NCBI GenBank assembly: GCA_035502855.1
Contig: DATJTX010000009.1
Coordinates: 1-58,359, forward strand
DNA from: Candidatus Baltobacteraceae bacterium
GTDB lineage: Bacteria; Vulcanimicrobiota; Vulcanimicrobiia; Vulcanimicrobiales; Vulcanimicrobiaceae
Length of the DNA: 58,359 bases
Direction: 5' to 3'
This document shows, in pieces, positions 2,990-14,078 of the stretch; positions within the stretch are counted from its first letter, which is position 1, and every line of letters starts with the position of its first letter. A program made the translations under genes and the position numbers. The notes below the pieces were generated by a model, which saw nothing but the letters and a program-made list of their open reading frames with translations, did no database searches and was not told where the DNA came from.

Positions 2990-3612
2990 ACCTGCGGAAA
3001 TGTATATCCGAAACGGTGCACATCCTGCGCGTACCATTCGGCAACGAGTTCCCGCGCTTCGTCGTCGTAATATGCCTGGAGTGACTCACGCTCGCCGGCG
3101 TTACGATGCGGCAGCGGACCCAAAACTCCGAGCCGATCGAATACCTGCGCGATAGAAGCGTCGAGTTGCTCGAATCGCAGCACGTCGTCGACCAGGATCC
3201 GGTCGTTTGTGTCATAGAGGAAGCGGTATTGTGGCTCCCACTGAACGTGCGCGCGCGCCCGGATCGCGCGCAGATACGCTTTGAACGTTGCATCCCCGTC
3301 GATGCCGAGGAACGCTTGCAAGTCGGGTCGGCGGCGCAAGAAGACGAACTGCGAGACCGCGCGGTCCCACGGGTTACGGACGACGGCGAAGCGGTAGTAC
3401 CGCTCAAAGGTCTCCTCTCCGATCACCTTGCGAACGAGCGCCGCGGTGAGGTGCTGCAGTCCACCGGTCTGATATGGGTTGCAGTACGCGTCGACGAAAC
3501 CGCCCCACAACTCGTTGGTCGTGCGCGGTCCCGGCCACAGTACGTCTTCGATGCTGGTCCCGCCGCATTTTGGAATGTGAATGAAGACGCAGCGTAGCGA
3601 ATGCGAGATCAC
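2977..3612 (-). CDS. Sulfotransferase family protein (second copy)
   Basis: Protein of 211 aa with the PAPS-binding loop FIHIPKCGGTSIEDVLW at the N-terminus and the second motif FAVVRNPWDRAVSQFVF. It is related to the gene at 2306 and faces it tail to tail with a short overlap. The start is the GTG at 3612, which overlaps the stop of the upstream PhyH gene as GTGA, a layout used repeatedly in this cluster. It ends with HRFGYTFPQ, close to the RFGYAF end of the first copy, so the pair may be an inverted duplication. Confidence 0.78.
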   Translation of the reverse strand: MISHSLRCVFIHIPKCGGTSIEDVLWPGPRTTNELWGGFVDAYCNPYQTGGLQHLTAALVRKVIGEETFERYYRFAVVRNPWDRAVSQFVFLRRRPDLQAFLGIDGDATFKAYLRAIRARAHVQWEPQYRFLYDTNDRILVDDVLRFEQLDASIAQVFDRLGVLGPLPHRNAGERESLQAYYDDEARELVAEWYAQDVHRFGYTFPQVQNA

Positions 3613-4226
3613 GGAGTCACCTCGATCGCCTCGTACGACGGAAAGAGCCGGGCGCGATCGATGCGCACTCCGGGAAGCGTAAAGCGAATCGCCAGTGCCA
3701 TGCGGCCGTGCGCCGTCACGTTCGTACCGGAGCGGTGCACCGTGTCCTGATCGAAGAGAAAATACTCCCCCGGGGCAAGCTCCATCGCGATGTCCCGCGA
3801 CTCCGGAGCCGGCAGCGTGCGGATCTCCACGCAACCGTTCTCACGCGTGGCCGGCTCGAGCGCCAACCATGCGGAGACGTTGATCATGGGATCGAGCATC
3901 GTCGTCCAGTGGTCACGATCGCGGTGCCAGTCGAAGATGCCCGCGCCTGCGGCTTTGGGAAAGAAGTTCGAACGCCAGAGCACGATCGAGGGTCCGAGGA
4001 TGCCCCTGACGCGCTCGATGATCGCCGGCGTCAGGCACATCGTTCGTACCAGCTCTGAGTCTAGGTGTCGCGACTGCGCCGGCGAGCGAGGATCCGGGCC
4101 GGTCGTGCCCAAAAGACGGTATGCCTCGTCACAGAACGTGCGCGCCTGTGAGTGAGAGAACGCGGTGAACGGCCCGGCGAATCCGTTGAGCGCAAAATCG
4201 ATTGCGGTCACGTCGTGAGGTTCCAC
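3609..4226 (-). CDS. Phytanoyl-CoA dioxygenase (PhyH) family oxygenase
   Basis: Protein of 205 aa resembling the PhyH branch of non-haem Fe(II)/2-oxoglutarate oxygenases. The metal triad can be read as His101 and Asp103 in WHRDRD and His164 in DTVHRSGTN, with a candidate 2-oxoglutarate-binding Arg in ALAIRF. PhyH enzymes hydroxylate lipids, carrier-bound acyl groups or small molecules. Its place upstream of a sulfotransferase suggests a hydroxylate-then-sulfate order, which is inference. It overlaps the next gene by 4 bp and lies 6 bp after the glycosyltransferase gene. Confidence 0.75.
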   Translation of the reverse strand: MEPHDVTAIDFALNGFAGPFTAFSHSQARTFCDEAYRLLGTTGPDPRSPAQSRHLDSELVRTMCLTPAIIERVRGILGPSIVLWRSNFFPKAAGAGIFDWHRDRDHWTTMLDPMINVSAWLALEPATRENGCVEIRTLPAPESRDIAMELAPGEYFLFDQDTVHRSGTNVTAHGRMALAIRFTLPGVRIDRARLFPSYEAIEVTP

Positions 4227-4232
4227 ATGCGA

Positions 4233-5813
4233 TTAGCGAAAGACATTTCGAACCGATTCGGCGACACGCTCGACGTCGAGCGCCTCGTGGGCCGTCGGGA
4301 CGAGATGAACGTTGGCGATCCCAAGGCCGCATAAGGCGTCGCGTTCCGGAAGCGTTGCGGTAATCACAACATCGGCGCGCCGTGCCGCAGCAAGGCCGGA
4401 CGCCACCTCATCGCATTCGCGCGCGAAGTGCGAATCGGTCGCATCATAAATGAATTTCATGGCCTGGTTACGCCCGAGAATCGGGTAATACGCTTCGAAA
4501 AGCTCCGCTCGGGTGATCCACGCGTAGTCGAGGATCGGCAAGATTTCGTCGATGGCCGCTTCCTTTAGGGGGCCACCCTCGACATGACGGAGCACCTCGA
4601 TGCCGAGCGCTTCCAGCTTGGACGCGTATGGGACGATCGCGGTGAAATTGTCAACTAAGAAGATCACGTGGAAGCCCTGATCGCGCATGATTTTGAGAAG
4701 CGTGAAGAGGCGCTCGGCTCCCACCTCTCGACCCTGCACAGGCACGTACGAATCGACGACGAGCACGACCTGTCCGCGGCGAATCCGGCGCGCCGCTTCG
4801 GCCGATCTCCCGGATTGGTGATGGCTGACGAGCGACTCACGCCAGCGTTCGGCGAATTTCGCCTGATTGGCCGCCTGGTACCGTTTCACGTCGCGGATCA
4901 CGGCGGCGCCGCCGGCCACGTCCTCGTCATGAACGACCTGCGAGCGCGGTTGATACACGACGCGAAACCCAGCCGCGCGGGCGCCAAAGCAGAGATCGGC
5001 ATCTTCGTAGTATGCCGGCGCGTATCGTGTATCGAAGCCGCCCAGCGACCGAAACACGTCGGCACGAACCAGTAGTGAAGCACCCGAGCAATAGTCGACG
5101 TCACGCACGTAGTTGTAGCGGGGATCGTTCGGATCGTCGCCGCGACCGTAGCTCGCGCCCGATCCGTCGCGATAGATGATGCTGCCGGCTTCTTGCAGCC
5201 TGCCGTTGGGATGGATCAGCTTGGATCCGACGATCGCGATCGAGCCGTCGCTTTCGGCCGTCGTAACGAGCTCGTCGAGCCATCCGTCGTGTACCGATGT
5301 GTCGTCCTTGAGAAAGCATAGGTACTTTCCCCTTGCGATCGATGCGCCGCGGTTGCATGCGCCGATGGGACCCTCTTCGTGCTCGTTGCGAGCGACGATG
5401 AGGCCGGGTAACGCGTCCGCGAGCAGCGTGATTTCGCCTCTGGATCCGTCGTCGACGACGATGATCTCCAATTCGAGTGTCTCGAACCATGAGCTCGCGA
5501 TCGAAGCGAGGCAGCGCACGGTAAACTCGACGCGATTGGATGCCGGTATAATGATCGACGCAATCGGTTCGAACGAAAGTGGGCGCTCGGCCGTTCGGCG
5601 CAGCCATAGCTCGCGCAATCGCTCGAGCGCGGGGGGGTGGAAACGCTCCAGCGCAATCGCACCGTTGGCGGGCCGCGCGAGCGCCGTGTGCAAGCGATAG
5701 AAGCGGCTGGCCTTCAGCCGTTCGAGATCGGCCCGCAGTTCCTCGACTCGCTCGCGTGCCGATCGCGCGCGCCGTACCGCGGCTTCGAATCGCTGATGAT
5801 TCGTTTCATTCAT
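4233..5813 (-). CDS. Two-domain glycosyltransferase (GT2 plus GT-B-like domain)
   Basis: Protein of 526 aa. Residues about 15-60 form a short coiled coil. A family-2 glycosyltransferase domain starts at SIIIPASNRVEFTVRCLAS, with VVDDGS and a later EDADLCFGARAAGF motif. The C-terminal 190 residues (from VVLVVDSYVPVQGREVG) look like a GT-B N-terminal half. The start is ATG 5813, overlapping the SGNH stop as ATGA. A longer open frame upstream only covers the neighbour. It probably acts in the cytoplasm, adding sugars to a surface polymer or carrier-bound chain. Confidence 0.78.
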   Translation of the reverse strand: MNETNHQRFEAAVRRARSARERVEELRADLERLKASRFYRLHTALARPANGAIALERFHPPALERLRELWLRRTAERPLSFEPIASIIIPASNRVEFTVRCLASIASSWFETLELEIIVVDDGSRGEITLLADALPGLIVARNEHEEGPIGACNRGASIARGKYLCFLKDDTSVHDGWLDELVTTAESDGSIAIVGSKLIHPNGRLQEAGSIIYRDGSGASYGRGDDPNDPRYNYVRDVDYCSGASLLVRADVFRSLGGFDTRYAPAYYEDADLCFGARAAGFRVVYQPRSQVVHDEDVAGGAAVIRDVKRYQAANQAKFAERWRESLVSHHQSGRSAEAARRIRRGQVVLVVDSYVPVQGREVGAERLFTLLKIMRDQGFHVIFLVDNFTAIVPYASKLEALGIEVLRHVEGGPLKEAAIDEILPILDYAWITRAELFEAYYPILGRNQAMKFIYDATDSHFARECDEVASGLAAARRADVVITATLPERDALCGLGIANVHLVPTAHEALDVERVAESVRNVFR

Positions 5814-10980: not shown

Positions 10981-10988
10981 AGGATTTC
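10981..10988. repeat. Left 8-bp target-site duplication
   Basis: AGGATTTC lies directly outside the left inverted end of the mobile element and is repeated as AGGATTTC at 14071-14078 directly outside the right end. The duplication length fits IS1-family insertion (usually 8-9 bp). Confidence 0.85.
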
Positions 10989-11007
10989 GGTAGTGGGTCA
11001 GTTTGAA
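10989..11007 (+). repeat. Left 19-bp terminal inverted repeat
   Basis: GGTAGTGGGTCAGTTTGAA, an exact inverted match to 14052-14070. The stop codon of the 82-aa passenger gene lies inside it. Confidence 0.9.
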
Positions 11008-11246
11008 TCGGCAGGCTCCTGCGGAGCTTGATCGGCCAAGCGCAACCGTCGCTTGCGGCGACGTTCCTCATGCTCTCGCGCGTATTCCGCAAGTGCATCT
11101 GCCGAGTGGTTTAGGCCGTAGAAAAAGAGCTTCTTCGCCAGTGGTCCCTTGGCGTCGTCACCTGCCAAGTCGAAGAAGTCGCAAACGTCGTCCCCGGTGA
11201 TGGTGAACTGCACGGGATATTCCTCGGGCGGGTCCTTCTTAGCCAT
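10998..11246 (-). CDS. Small hypothetical passenger protein
   Basis: Protein of 82 aa starting at ATG 11246 (MAKKDPPEEYPVQFTITGDD) and ending in a highly charged EHEERRRKRRLRL tail. The central part DVCDFFDLAGDDAKGPLAKKLFFYGLNHSADAL looks like a short helical domain. It resembles no family I can name. Its C-terminal codons and stop run into the left terminal repeat, which suggests it evolved with the element. A longer frame upstream adds 26 residues without a ribosome-binding site. It could be a regulator of transposition or a partner of the passenger ribonuclease. Confidence 0.5.
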   Translation of the reverse strand: MAKKDPPEEYPVQFTITGDDVCDFFDLAGDDAKGPLAKKLFFYGLNHSADALAEYAREHEERRRKRRLRLADQAPQEPADSN

Positions 11247-11420
11247 GGGCTGGCATTGTGACACAGAACCGGGCAGACTGCCAATAGTACGTATTGTCTG
11301 GCATTGAGAAATATTATCTGCCAATAGGAGTCAATAGCCGGGCGTAGAAATCGACTGCGAACAAGTGCTCGCGAGGACGCGATCAGCGCATCGTCCAAGC
11401 GATCAGGTCCGTCAAACCGA

Positions 11421-11447
11421 ACGCCCCGGGTCGGAACCCAGGGCGTG
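11421..11447 (-). terminator. Terminator downstream of the tRNA
   Basis: ACGCCCTGGGT and ACCCGGGGCGT (minus strand) form an 11-bp stem with one mismatch around a 4-base loop, directly 3' of the tRNA CCA end and followed by TCGGTTT. It probably ends the tRNA transcript. Confidence 0.6.
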
Positions 11448-11450
11448 TTA

Positions 11451-11548
11451 TGGCGGAGAAGACAGGATTCGAACCTGCGGGGGCGCTTCTGAGGGCCATC
11501 CCCGCCCGAACCTAAGTCGGGTGCCTTAAGCCACTCGGCCACCTCTCC
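11451..11548 (-). tRNA. Class II tRNA, anticodon UAG (Leu codon), serine-like body
   Basis: The 98-nt gene includes an encoded CCA. It folds as acceptor GGAGAGG/CUUCUCC (7 bp, one G-U), D arm GCC/GGC with loop GAGUGGCUUAA, anticodon stem CCCGA/UCGGG with loop CUUAGGU, a 26-nt variable region, and T arm GCAGG-UUCGAAU-CCUGU. The anticodon reads UAG, which decodes CUA leucine. However, the discriminator base is G73, usual for serine tRNAs, whereas leucine tRNAs nearly always have A73. The D arm and acceptor are also serine-like. Charging identity is therefore uncertain. It lies inside a mobile element. Confidence 0.85.
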
Positions 11549-11742
11549 CGGAGAGAGAAGCCCCGCCAGCCTTGGCGGAAGACGGGGCTAGGAGCACCAG
11601 GAGCCTGCGGGGGCAACCGACCGCGGGCCTTCCGCTTTTCCCGGGGTGCCATTTTTGCGCTCGCTTGGGGATTCCTTGCGAACAACCCCAAGATGTTGTG
11701 GAAAGATAAGAACCAGACACTATAGGTTTGAGAGGAACCCTC
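11549..11742. other. Non-coding stretch with hairpin upstream of tRNA
   Basis: No gene is supported. A hairpin with arms AGCCCCG and CGGGGCT lies at about 11559-11590, just 5' of the tRNA on its own strand. It could be a terminator for the transposase transcript or a processing signal. Confidence 0.4.
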
Positions 11743-12590
11743 TTAGGCTGCTAGTCCCGCGATGAAGTCCGGTAAGTTCGCCAGGTCATCAAGCCTCCAA
11801 AGGCGATCGGTCACGCCGTGCGCGATCGCGGGTGTCGTTTTCAGGGTGTGATGAATACGGCAGAAATTGTAGTACATGAAATGCAACGCGAGCGCTCGTT
11901 GTAGATTCTGCGCTTTCTTCGAGAACGCATTAGTTAGCCGTGTGAAACGACGCATCGACATACGCATCGTAAGATTATTGCGCTCGACAAACGCCGTTGA
12001 AATATGCTCGGGATCGGGAGCGCCAAATACGCGCGTGCGGACAACTTCCTTGACGATGAGCGGACTGTATTTCCGCTCGGGGTTGTCGTCGTCGAAGCCA
12101 AATACTTTCACTTCCGTGCCATGGTCGCCGCGTATACGAAAATAACGCTGAATTGGCTCTTTGTAGCGATTGAAGCCGTCCGTCGAAATTTGAACATGCG
12201 ACGTGATTCGACGCGAGAGATCGCGCACGAAGTAATGAGCGTCGGCTAACGTGCGCTTTCCAAGATGCCACGAAACGATGAGCTTCGTATCAGCATCAAT
12301 CACGGTCCAAGTCCAGAGGTCGCCATAACGATCATCACCGCGATACTCACGCGGCAAGTTCCGCTCTTTCGCATGGCAGAACGACCAAATCTCGTCGAGC
12401 TGGACGCGCACGCATGAGAGGTTCTGCATCGTTTCATCGTGATAGCGGTCGCACGCGTCGCCAACCTCGGCCAACAGTTTAAGGTCGTGCCCTTGGCGGC
12501 GCCCGTCAGCCGCGAGGTGCCCCGGATCGAATTGCCTTCGACCAGGGCAGCCAGGACACGGACGCGATCCTCAAGCGGGAGCCTATTCAT
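11743..12590 (-). CDS. IS1-family transposase, two frames joined by -1 frameshift
   Basis: Frame A starts at ATG 12590 (MNRLPLEDRVRVLAALVEGN, a helix-turn-helix-like start). Frame B carries the DDE-type catalytic part: QLDEIWSFCHAKERN, GDLWTWTVIDADTKLIVSWHLGKR, TDG, and FVERNNLTMRMSMRRFTRL. A single -1 shift at CTTAAAC (12477-12483) joins them into exactly 283 codons, giving 282 aa. The heptamer resembles known slippery sites, so programmed frameshifting is plausible; simple decay is the alternative. It has a good promoter at 12600-12628. The protein catalyses cut or copy of the element through the 19-bp ends. Confidence 0.8.
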
Positions 12591-12599
12591 GACCGCTCA

Positions 12600-12628
12600 A
12601 GCATAACACAATATGCGTAAGCGGTCAA
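12600..12628 (-). promoter_or_regulatory. Promoter of the transposase gene
   Basis: On the minus strand TTGACC (12628-12623) and TATGCT (12605-12600) are 17 bp apart, close to the sigma-70 consensus. The predicted transcript start falls only a few bases before the ATG at 12590, so the message would be leaderless or nearly so. The inverted pair TGACCGCT/AGCGGTCA brackets this promoter and may be an operator. Confidence 0.6.
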
Positions 12629-12852
12629 GCATGGGCGCTCAGTTTGTTTTGAACGTTATATATTGCACCCGTGCCCCTCTGTGGTACATTATGTGCCCAG
12701 CCCCTTTACAGATACTGAGACTTTAGGGCCTTGACTCACCATGCCAGGCGCTCTATCATGTGCTCATGATGTTCCCGTCACGCGCTTTAGCGTGACGTAT
12801 CCCGTTCCCGGTTGCACAGCGCCCATACCCGCGGCAACCGAATGATGTTCCC

Positions 12853-12885
12853 GGGGAGCCGAGAGGCTCCCCGTATTGATTTTTA
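12853..12885 (+). terminator. Rho-independent terminator before the NYN gene
   Basis: GGGGAGCC-GAGA-GGCTCCCC is a perfect 8-bp stem with a tetraloop, followed by GTATTGATTTTTATT. It would stop a rightward transcript arising in 12600-12850. Confidence 0.7.
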
Positions 12886-12920
12886 TTAGTCAACTTTAGA
12901 ACACGCCGCGGGAGGGCAAC

Positions 12921-13520
12921 TTGTCTACATCAGTCCGTCTTTTTATCGACTTTTGGAACTTCCAAATCCAATGGCGTGATCGCACAAACGACGCGCACCT
13001 GGATTGGGCAAAATTACCCGCGGCGCTGTCCAGCGCAGCGCAAGCGGCGGCGCCACAATTGGGTGCGCTTCGCATCGACGACACCCGTATCTACGCTTCG
13101 GTGAATCCCCACAAAGACGCAAAGCTGCGCGGATGGCTTGACACGTTCCTGGACAGGCAACCCGGGTTTCGAGTGTTCGTCCACGAACGACGCTCTCGCA
13201 GAAAACCCGTGCATTGCGGGGCCTGCAACACCGATTTACCGGACTGCCCAAATTGCCATACGCCCTACGAGCGCGCTGTTGAGAAGGGCGTCGATTCCGC
13301 AATTCTCACGGATATGTTTTCCCTCGCATGGGAAGACGCGTACGAAGTGGCTATACTCGTCAGCGGCGACGCTGATCTAATTCCGGCGGTCGAAAAAATC
13401 CAGGACCGTGGCCTGAAAGTCGTCAATGCGACTTGGCAGAGTTACGGAAACAATCTTGCCAAGGCATGTTGGGCATCATTTTTCGTTGATCCACTCGTCC
13501 AGCAACTGACGCGCCCCTAG
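12921..13520 (+). CDS. NYN/LabA-DUF88 domain ribonuclease with Cys4 insert
   Basis: Protein of 199 aa starting at TTG 12921 with GGAGG five bases upstream. LFIDFWNFQ carries the first acidic residue of the PIN-like NYN fold. EKGVDSAILTDMFSLAWEDAYEVAILVSGDADLIPAVEKI carries the KGVD and SGDAD motifs that complete the acidic active site. A short zinc-ribbon-like insert, CGACNTDLPDCPNC (about residues 97-110), splits the domain. The family cleaves RNA, and relatives act on tRNA or mRNA. As a passenger of a mobile element it may be a maintenance or defence nuclease. That is inference. Confidence 0.8.
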   Translation: MSTSVRLFIDFWNFQIQWRDRTNDAHLDWAKLPAALSSAAQAAAPQLGALRIDDTRIYASVNPHKDAKLRGWLDTFLDRQPGFRVFVHERRSRRKPVHCGACNTDLPDCPNCHTPYERAVEKGVDSAILTDMFSLAWEDAYEVAILVSGDADLIPAVEKIQDRGLKVVNATWQSYGNNLAKACWASFFVDPLVQQLTRP

Positions 13521-13750
13521 GGCTTTTTCCCCCAGCGCGCCTCGGCTGCTTTCTTCGCGACCTCTTTGCGTTGCTCGGGCGTCATGGACGCGGCCCGCGC
13601 CTTCCCACCCTTAAGGCCACCTAGGCGCCCTAGCGCTTGCGCGGCGGGGTTCTTCTCGGGCTCGGGTGTGGCTTCACCAGCGATCCGGTCAAGGATCGAC
13701 TTCGCGGCGAGGTTGGGGTCAAAGGGCGGCTTACTTGAGCGCTTAGGCAT
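13517..13750 (-). CDS. Small basic Ala/Lys-rich protein
   Basis: Protein of 77 aa starting at ATG 13750 (MPKRSSKPPFDPNLAAKSI). The C-terminal half, GRLGGLKGGKARAASMTPEQRKEVAKKAAEARWGKK, is a common small-protein module found widely in soil bacteria, with a nucleic-acid-binding appearance. Its function is not established. It is convergent with the NYN gene, and the two stop codons overlap. The upstream extension of the frame is arginine/cysteine-rich noise. Confidence 0.7.
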   Translation of the reverse strand: MPKRSSKPPFDPNLAAKSILDRIAGEATPEPEKNPAAQALGRLGGLKGGKARAASMTPEQRKEVAKKAAEARWGKKP

Positions 13751-13782
13751 ACCCCAAGCGTAGCACGAACCGCGCGACGCTT

Positions 13783-13992
13783 CTAGCGATTCTGAAAATA
13801 GCTCCATGCGGCGTACGCAAGCACGATGATCCCGAGCGACCAGGGAATAGTGTGCCACAGAAACTCCTGCAGATAGCCAGCACCGAAGCCGTCCGCCCAC
13901 AGGCTGAGCGAAGTCGCGTCATGAGCGCACACAAAAATGATCAGCGCGACTGCCATCGCGGGGATCACGCGTTTCGCGGTTTCTTTGGTCAT
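13783..13992 (-). CDS. Small integral membrane protein
   Basis: Protein of 69 aa with two hydrophobic segments (about residues 9-25, VIPAMAVALIIFVCAH, and 43-64, LWHTIPWSLGIIVLAYAAW), each long enough to span the membrane. I recognise no family. It is the outermost passenger on the right side of the mobile element and ends 33 bp before the small basic protein gene starts, so the two may be co-transcribed. Confidence 0.5.
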   Translation of the reverse strand: MTKETAKRVIPAMAVALIIFVCAHDATSLSLWADGFGAGYLQEFLWHTIPWSLGIIVLAYAAWSYFQNR

Positions 13993-14051
13993 CCCGCATT
14001 TAATAATCGGGGACCAACCCTAGTCGCCTGCTTGGTGCCGCTTGGTCAGAT

Positions 14052-14070
14052 TTCAAACTGACCCACTACC
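14052..14070 (-). repeat. Right 19-bp terminal inverted repeat
   Basis: Exact reverse complement of the left end at 10989-11007, defining the right boundary of the mobile element. Confidence 0.9.
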
Positions 14071-14078
14071 AGGATTTC
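14071..14078. repeat. Right 8-bp target-site duplication
   Basis: AGGATTTC, identical to 10981-10988. Joining the two flanks rebuilds a continuous pre-insertion sequence running into CACACGTGTGAG. Confidence 0.85.

Follow-up and report, generated by a model that had tools for sequence, protein, structure and literature searches.

A chimeric tRNA gene, with a serine-type body and a leucine anticodon, as cargo of an IS1-family transposon in Candidatus Baltobacteraceae

The window (the whole stretch of 58,359 nucleotides that was analysed) contains one tRNA gene, as detected by ARAGORN and Rfam, and this gene is chimeric, as judged from its sequence: the body is of the serine type and the anticodon, UAG, is that of a leucine tRNA. 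The gene almost certainly lies inside a transposon of the IS1 family, where it accompanies the transposase and other cargo (Table 1). The reading preferred here, plausible but still tentative, is that the tRNA is transposon cargo that would be charged with serine and would decode CUA, replacing leucine with serine, perhaps as a brake on the element's own transposase.

The tRNA gene and the element that carries it

The gene is intact and combines a serine-type acceptor, D-arm and T-arm with a complete leucine UAG anticodon loop (UUAGG). It scores 52.3 bits with Rfam RF00005 and 99 bits with the covariance model of its own family, the window copy being part of the training set. When the anticodon arm and the variable arm were removed before scoring, the remaining body scored 28-30 against four host Ser tRNAs versus 10-16 against four host Leu tRNAs, and the D-arm (GGCCGAGTGG...AAGGC) differs from the Leu type (GGCGGAA...GACGC). 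Compared to a canonical tRNA-Leu, the gene has the leucine anticodon loop and lacks both A73 and the Leu D-arm; compared to a canonical tRNA-Ser, it has the acceptor, D-arm, T-arm, long variable arm and G73, and lacks a serine anticodon (NGA or GCU), UAG being present in every element-borne copy of the tRNA. The initial annotation had described the UAG anticodon, G73, the serine-like acceptor and D arm and the 26-nt variable arm, and all were confirmed by ARAGORN, Rfam and the body scores; the comparison with host Leu and Ser tRNAs that it proposed places the gene far nearer the Ser set.

The host genome (G000) is a metagenome-assembled genome (MAG) from a soil bacterium, 96.6% complete, with 47 tRNAs. 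A73 occurs together with the usual GGCGGAA D-arm in each of its Leu tRNAs (CAA, CAG, GAG and UAG). Had the leucine tRNAs of the lineage shared G73 and the D arm of the window tRNA, this would have spoken against the initial annotation; those of the host do not, and a lineage-wide odd tRNA-Leu is ruled out by these canonical genes. Among the host Ser tRNAs, position 73 is G in CGA, GCU and GGA and U in Ser(UGA). A tRNA-Leu(UAA) was not detected, which may reflect an assembly gap or an intron-interrupted gene. The chimeric identity of the window tRNA is thus confirmed at the level of sequence.

Table 1. Positions of the tRNA gene, the surrounding transposon and its other features in the window
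Feature	Position	Strand	Remarks
Cargo-bearing IS1-family transposon, 3,082 bp	10989..14070	.	TIRs, TSD, relatives' homologous TIRs
Left target-site duplication (TSD) AGGATTTC	10981..10988		
Left terminal inverted repeat (TIR) GGTAGTGGGTCAGTTTGAA	10989..11007	+	perfect 19 bp
Small ORF, 82 aa, cargo	10998..11246	-	no Pfam match
Terminator-type hairpin	11421..11446	-	starts 5 nt past tRNA CCA
tRNA gene	11451..11548	-	ARAGORN: tRNA-Leu(UAG); Ser-type body
Encoded CCA of tRNA	11451-11453	-	
G73 of tRNA	11454	-	
Variable arm of tRNA, 26 nt	11479-11504	-	
Anticodon UAG (Leu, CUA) of tRNA	11512-11514	-	
IS1-type DDE transposase	11743..12590	-	PF03400 (DDE_Tnp_IS1)
Transposase, overlapping frames in window copy	12300-12590 and 11743-12474	-	
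CUA codon, transposase Leu232 (NL; G004 protein numbering)	11902..11904	-	CTA in 14/14 clade members
CUA codon, transposase Leu221 (RRFTRL; G004 protein numbering)	11935..11937	-	CTA in 14/14 clade members
Cargo gene, NYN-domain protein	12921..13520	+	PF01936, E 1e-12
Cargo gene, small basic GGLKGGKARA protein	13520..13750	-	near transposase in most copies
Small ORF, probable membrane protein, cargo	13783..13992	-	
Right terminal inverted repeat	14052..14070	-	perfect 19 bp
Right target-site duplication AGGATTTC	14071..14078		

The features of an IS1-family element are present: a DDE transposase (26.2 bits with PF03400, cut-off 24.1) and TIRs with 8-9-bp duplications, which enclose both the tRNA and the transposase. 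An 8-bp direct repeat, AGGATTTC, flanks both TIRs of the window element, and the location inside an IS1-type element proposed by the initial annotation is borne out by the 19-bp TIRs, this TSD and the DDE_Tnp_IS1 transposase. Homologous TIRs and 8-9-bp TSDs delimit the relatives in genomes G004 (ACCAGGGTC), G121 (GACGGCCTC), G099 (TATTGCCGC), G019 (CGTTTAGGC) and G083 (GAAAGCGG); the second element end was not found for G005 and G015. The window TIR recurs exactly in IS1-family elements of Mesorhizobium and nearly so in those of Hoeflea, on plasmids of both genera. The window transposase is a single copy in its genome, and elsewhere full-length copies are nearly always one per genome.

A protein of the GGLKGGKARA...AAxARW type is encoded near the transposase in the window and at L082, L102-L108 and L111; two copies tested had no Pfam match, and in a Mesorhizobium relative of the element a comparable position is occupied by a gene annotated 'histone H1'. 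The window element is directly upstream of dnaA (14392). This gene adjoins four of the 13 fuller IS1-type loci (the window, L106, L108 and L109; genomes G000, G015, G026 and G083), and in both G000 and G083 the copy is no more than a few bases away from a common TTTCCACAC-type motif, which suggests either a target preference for the origin region or an old shared insertion.

Relatives within and outside the phylum

A motif pattern derived for the tRNA matched 7 of the 149 genomes of the phylum and the reversed control pattern matched none, indicating that the pattern does not arise by chance. Copies linked to an element were located via the transposase or the covariance model. In the search that began from the transposase, ARAGORN called a tRNA at five of the 13 fuller loci, window included; the covariance model brought the intact copies to six (the addition being G083, L108 6905-7000) and also found a degenerate copy lacking the D-arm (G116, L115 6290-6367). 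Thus, there are six intact Eremiobacterota element copies and a seventh remnant, and UAG is kept in all seven. Across 147 genomes the six intact copies scored 92-100 bits, five of them being within the training set of the model, and the next matches, at 82 bits or less, were serine tRNAs at all 24 loci examined, mostly Ser(UGA). The tRNA body was nearest to host Ser tRNAs in each of the eight family members tested. G73 is present in G000, G121, G015 and G083, and A73 in G004 and G005, so that G73 is not invariant in the family (two exceptions among six intact copies); the two A73 copies count against a strict serine identity. The G121 copy has C33, and that of G083 has a T-loop change from UUC to UCC.

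Further support for function was provided by the pairing of the seven aligned copies, in which 97.6% of pair cells form, the seven acceptor and five T-stem pairs are present throughout, and 13 of 24 pairs show two-sided changes, a level that neither shuffles nor slid structures approach. Terminator-type hairpins follow the tRNA at all six loci folded; the one in the window has a folding energy of -24.4 kcal/mol (z -2.8), and comparable hairpins in G004, G005, G121, Afipia and Bradyrhizobium have z values from -3.5 to -4.9. It is very probable, from these comparisons, that the gene encodes a functional tRNA under selection. In three copies a terminator-like hairpin also lies within about a dozen nucleotides 5' of the tRNA (window 11561-11580, minus strand; L104, before 10224; L087, before 2418, minus strand), so that expression may occur via read-through of the terminator of the upstream gene.

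Only 5' halves of the tRNA occur at L080 8556-8599 (G110) and L081 7819-7862 (G047), with no transposase adjacent; in G110, the half and the 3' end of an ORF overlap, and their contig also carries genes of the conjugation type. ARAGORN with introns allowed and Rfam found no intron-bearing tRNA in either genome, and the halves were treated as remnants.

Outside the phylum, a strict pattern applied to about 85,000 species genomes gave two convincing bacterial matches, Bradyrhizobium sp. Oc8 and Afipia clevelandensis. The Bradyrhizobium copy is within a 3.07-kb transposon that is bounded by TIRs and an 8-bp duplication (GATCGATG) and encodes an IS1595-type zinc-ribbon transposase, and the Afipia copy is in a prophage that matches an IMG/VR provirus record. 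A metagenomic viral contig (L124) has a Ser-body UAG tRNA beside an IS1595-type transposase as well; TIRs of this element were not found. All three copies have G73 and are independent of the window family, so that the carriers of Ser-body UAG tRNAs include a prophage and no fewer than two transposon families. Other matches were discarded: those in archaea are canonical archaeal Leu tRNAs, Maritimibacter gave clustered eukaryote-like tRNAs, probably contamination, and one in a deltaproteobacterium, where no tRNA was called, is due to chance. The phage and plasmid collections gave ordinary tRNA-Ser-like matches only.

Some IS1-type elements carry other unusual tRNAs. On IMG/VR contigs L170-L173 (3781-3866 in L170) and L181 (3776-3859), tRNAs with a leucine-type body and the ochre suppressor anticodon UUA are followed on the same strand, after about 220 nt, by an IS1-type transposase; the L181 element is only 1.3 kb long (3518-4840, TSD AATCTCCC) and contains the tRNA and the transposase alone. 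None of the transposases beside these ochre tRNAs has an in-frame stop. At L206 (3820-3894), a tRNA with a Glu-like D-arm, the Thr anticodon AGU and C33 precedes an IS1-type transposase by 181 nt. The L106 element (G015) has a second tRNA (5605-5679) with the anticodon CUG (Gln) and A73, whose body is closest to the host tRNA-Arg(CCG).

Charging, decoding and the CUA codons of the transposase

Bacterial SerRS recognises the long arm and the acceptor and not the anticodon (PMC7609411). SerRS is encoded by a single gene in each of seven genomes searched, on a contig different from that of the element in the host, and no synthetase paralogue was recognised by Pfam among the element ORFs; hence there is no dedicated synthetase and charging would fall to the host enzyme, which most likely loads the tRNA with serine by reading its long arm and acceptor stem. 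Serylation of the window tRNA is accordingly rated as likely from its identity elements. In cell-free work with E. coli (PMC11099018), a tRNASer with a leucine anticodon inserted serine at leucine codons, and allo-tRNAs did so in E. coli cells (PMC7609411). Because the body is of the Ser type in every copy, SerRS is single and proof of the principle has been published for E. coli, serine at CUA is the best inference for these elements, and its insertion in cells appears somewhat probable. The initial annotation was right that the tRNA is chimeric and lies in an IS1-type element, and its proposal that CUA is read as serine stands as this best inference.

An ordinary tRNA-Leu(UAG) was found in at least G000, G004, G083, Bradyrhizobium and Afipia, whereas the pattern search for it gave a doubtful match in G005 and none in G121 and G015. 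In the former hosts the element tRNA would therefore compete with the normal CUA reader, and serine would enter at some CUA codons only. The C33 of the G121 copy would weaken decoding, as an altered U33 would in other natural mistranslating tRNAs, for which such changes have been reported (PMC11415595). The initial annotation had proposed counting CUA codons in the host genome and the element; on the ORFs of the window, CUA accounts for 3.1% of the Leu codons in chromosomal ORFs versus 7 of 59 in element genes (p=0.003). This rarity of CUA in the G+C-rich host (about 3% of window Leu codons) suggests that the host would tolerate the misreading.

The target most likely to matter would be the element's own transposase mRNA. 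In the transposase tree, where some inner support values are low, the tRNA-bearing copies form one clade together with G099 and G019. Within it, CTA stands at positions 221 and 232 in each of the eight full copies and in every one of the six scoreable fragments of the same type, while the other Leu columns show Leu codons of every sort. Of the invariant degenerate columns, about 110 in number, only five have a single codon throughout, and two of the five are these CTA codons. Outside the clade, site 221 has CTG, TTG or CTT, and site 232 encodes His or uses a different Leu codon; the 80 viral-contig homologues include 11 with CTA at 221 and one with CTA at 232. The overall CTA share of the transposases is no higher in the clade than outside, so that the signal sits in the two sites and not in general usage; CUA is also frequent, yet not invariant, in the small GGLKGGKARA gene and a P63C gene. 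Since the clade members share common descent, the conservation does not represent fourteen independent events.

The invariant pair lies in the conserved C-terminal part, which makes the transposase the likeliest target of consequence. Serine at one or both sites would weaken the protein and dilute the active enzyme, holding transposition down in a self-limiting manner. Such a brake is possible but less likely than not, and several observations speak against it: the transposase frame of the window copy is broken or depends on a frameshift, no tRNA was detected in G099 and G019, yet both CTAs are kept and the transposases are intact, and the transposases of the independent IS1595-type copies (Bradyrhizobium and L124) have no marked CUA codons, indicating that the brake is no general rule and arguing against a single general mechanism. 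Nor were telling stop or CUA codons matching the tRNA found in the transposases of L170, L181, Bradyrhizobium and L124. The initial annotation had offered a "selfish or regulatory" tRNA; the conserved anticodon, the covariation, the terminators and the two invariant CUA codons make this proposal concrete and single out neither option.

Other readings would leave the tRNA as a decoder and change its purpose. It might mistranslate CUA in incoming phages or plasmids that are richer in this codon, protecting the host-element pair or excluding rival phages. The rarity of CUA in the host, the independent copies in a prophage and other mobile elements, and the fact that engineered swapped tRNAs keep out phages and mobile elements, a point discussed in PMC11099018, are consistent with such a barrier, which is nevertheless fairly unlikely, as most copies are single and sporadic (7/149 genomes) and the two invariant transposase codons are left unexplained. 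If the tRNA were instead charged with leucine, it would supply a CUA reader for CUA-rich element genes. The excess of CUA in these genes, the leucine found at the conserved sites in many homologues and the A73 of G004 and G005 agree with this; the serine-type acceptor, D-arm and T-arm of all copies, the G73 of the other four genomes and of the three copies outside the phylum, and the ordinary tRNA-Leu(UAG) already encoded in at least five of the hosts (G000, G004, G083, Bradyrhizobium and Afipia) make a rare-codon helper unlikely. Strict CUA conservation at both sites, together with the tRNA, could also mean that the transposase of the clade requires serine there and works only beside its own tRNA, and site 232 is indeed usually His, not Leu, outside the clade. 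Leucine, however, occupies site 221 in almost every homologue (79 of the 80 viral-contig copies), and G099 and G019 have intact transposases with no tRNA detected, so that this dependence is very unlikely.

A role apart from decoding, as a decoy for a tRNA-cleaving toxin, an RNA signal, or a processing or terminator device, with serine charging incidental, would accommodate the C33 of G121 and the T-loop change of G083, both of which would impair decoding, the terminator-like hairpins that closely precede the tRNA in some copies, and the NYN-domain putative RNase in the cargo of the window element. The NYN gene is absent from the other tRNA-bearing elements and divergent copies keep the anticodon and most tRNA invariants, which renders such a role quite unlikely. 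Finally, a host tRNA gene captured by the element might have drifted in its anticodon and be functionless; elements outside the clade have no such tRNA, none was detected in two clade members, and 5'-half remnants exist in G047 and G110. UAG in all seven element-linked copies and the strong compensatory pairing largely contradict this neutral passenger already, and it is highly improbable.

The preferred reading, a serylated CUA-reading cargo tRNA, has a broader form in which the tRNA is coupled to the two invariant codons, transposase activity is set by how CUA is read, and IS1- and IS1595-type elements are wider carriers of code-altering tRNAs, as suggested by the Leu-body ochre (UUA) tRNAs in IS1-family elements of viral contigs. 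This extension is speculative and, taken as a whole, somewhat unlikely.

Comparison with known systems

If serine charging is true, the element carries a mobile, natural, amino-acid-swapped bacterial tRNA. Such tRNAs have so far come from engineered cells, from a few soil Actinobacteria (Pro) and from the allo-tRNAs, whose role is unknown. One tRNA, one transposase and two codons would form a small testable system for the self-regulation of selfish elements by mistranslation, and tRNA cargo is worth looking for in IS elements generally. The element resembles passenger-bearing transposons of the IS1 and IS1595 families in its DDE transposase, TIRs, 8-9-bp TSDs and passenger genes; no description of a tRNA as an IS-element passenger was found in the freely accessible literature searched.

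The nearest known kinds are the allo-tRNAs and tRNA-ProX, and the window tRNA, by its sequence features, fits the definition of neither. Allo-tRNAs (Mukai et al. 2017; reviewed in PMC7609411) are bacterial tRNAs of the serine type whose anticodons are those of other amino acids, leucine among them, and the same pairing of serine identity with a non-serine anticodon is predicted here; they differ in their 8/4 or 9/3 acceptor branches, whereas the element tRNAs have an ordinary 7/5 cloverleaf and are found in transposons. The tRNA-ProX of Streptomyces and Kitasatospora (ProA, ProN and ProT) are natural dual-identity tRNAs (PMC11415595). Like the element tRNA, they join the body of one amino acid to the anticodon of another; theirs is a proline body, in contrast to the serine body, the lack of an extra SerRS and the transposon location here. 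They often occur with a companion ProRS. In the CUG-clade yeasts, tRNA-Ser(CAG) is likewise a serine tRNA that reads a leucine CUN codon, and it has an altered position 33 (compare the C33 of G121), but there the reassignment of CUG is nuclear and genome-wide, while here a bacterial mobile tRNA exists beside an intact tRNA-Leu(UAG). The engineered Ser/Leu-swapped tRNAs (PMC11099018) share the design of a tRNASer with a Leu anticodon and insert serine at Leu codons; those were designed, whereas the element tRNA is natural.
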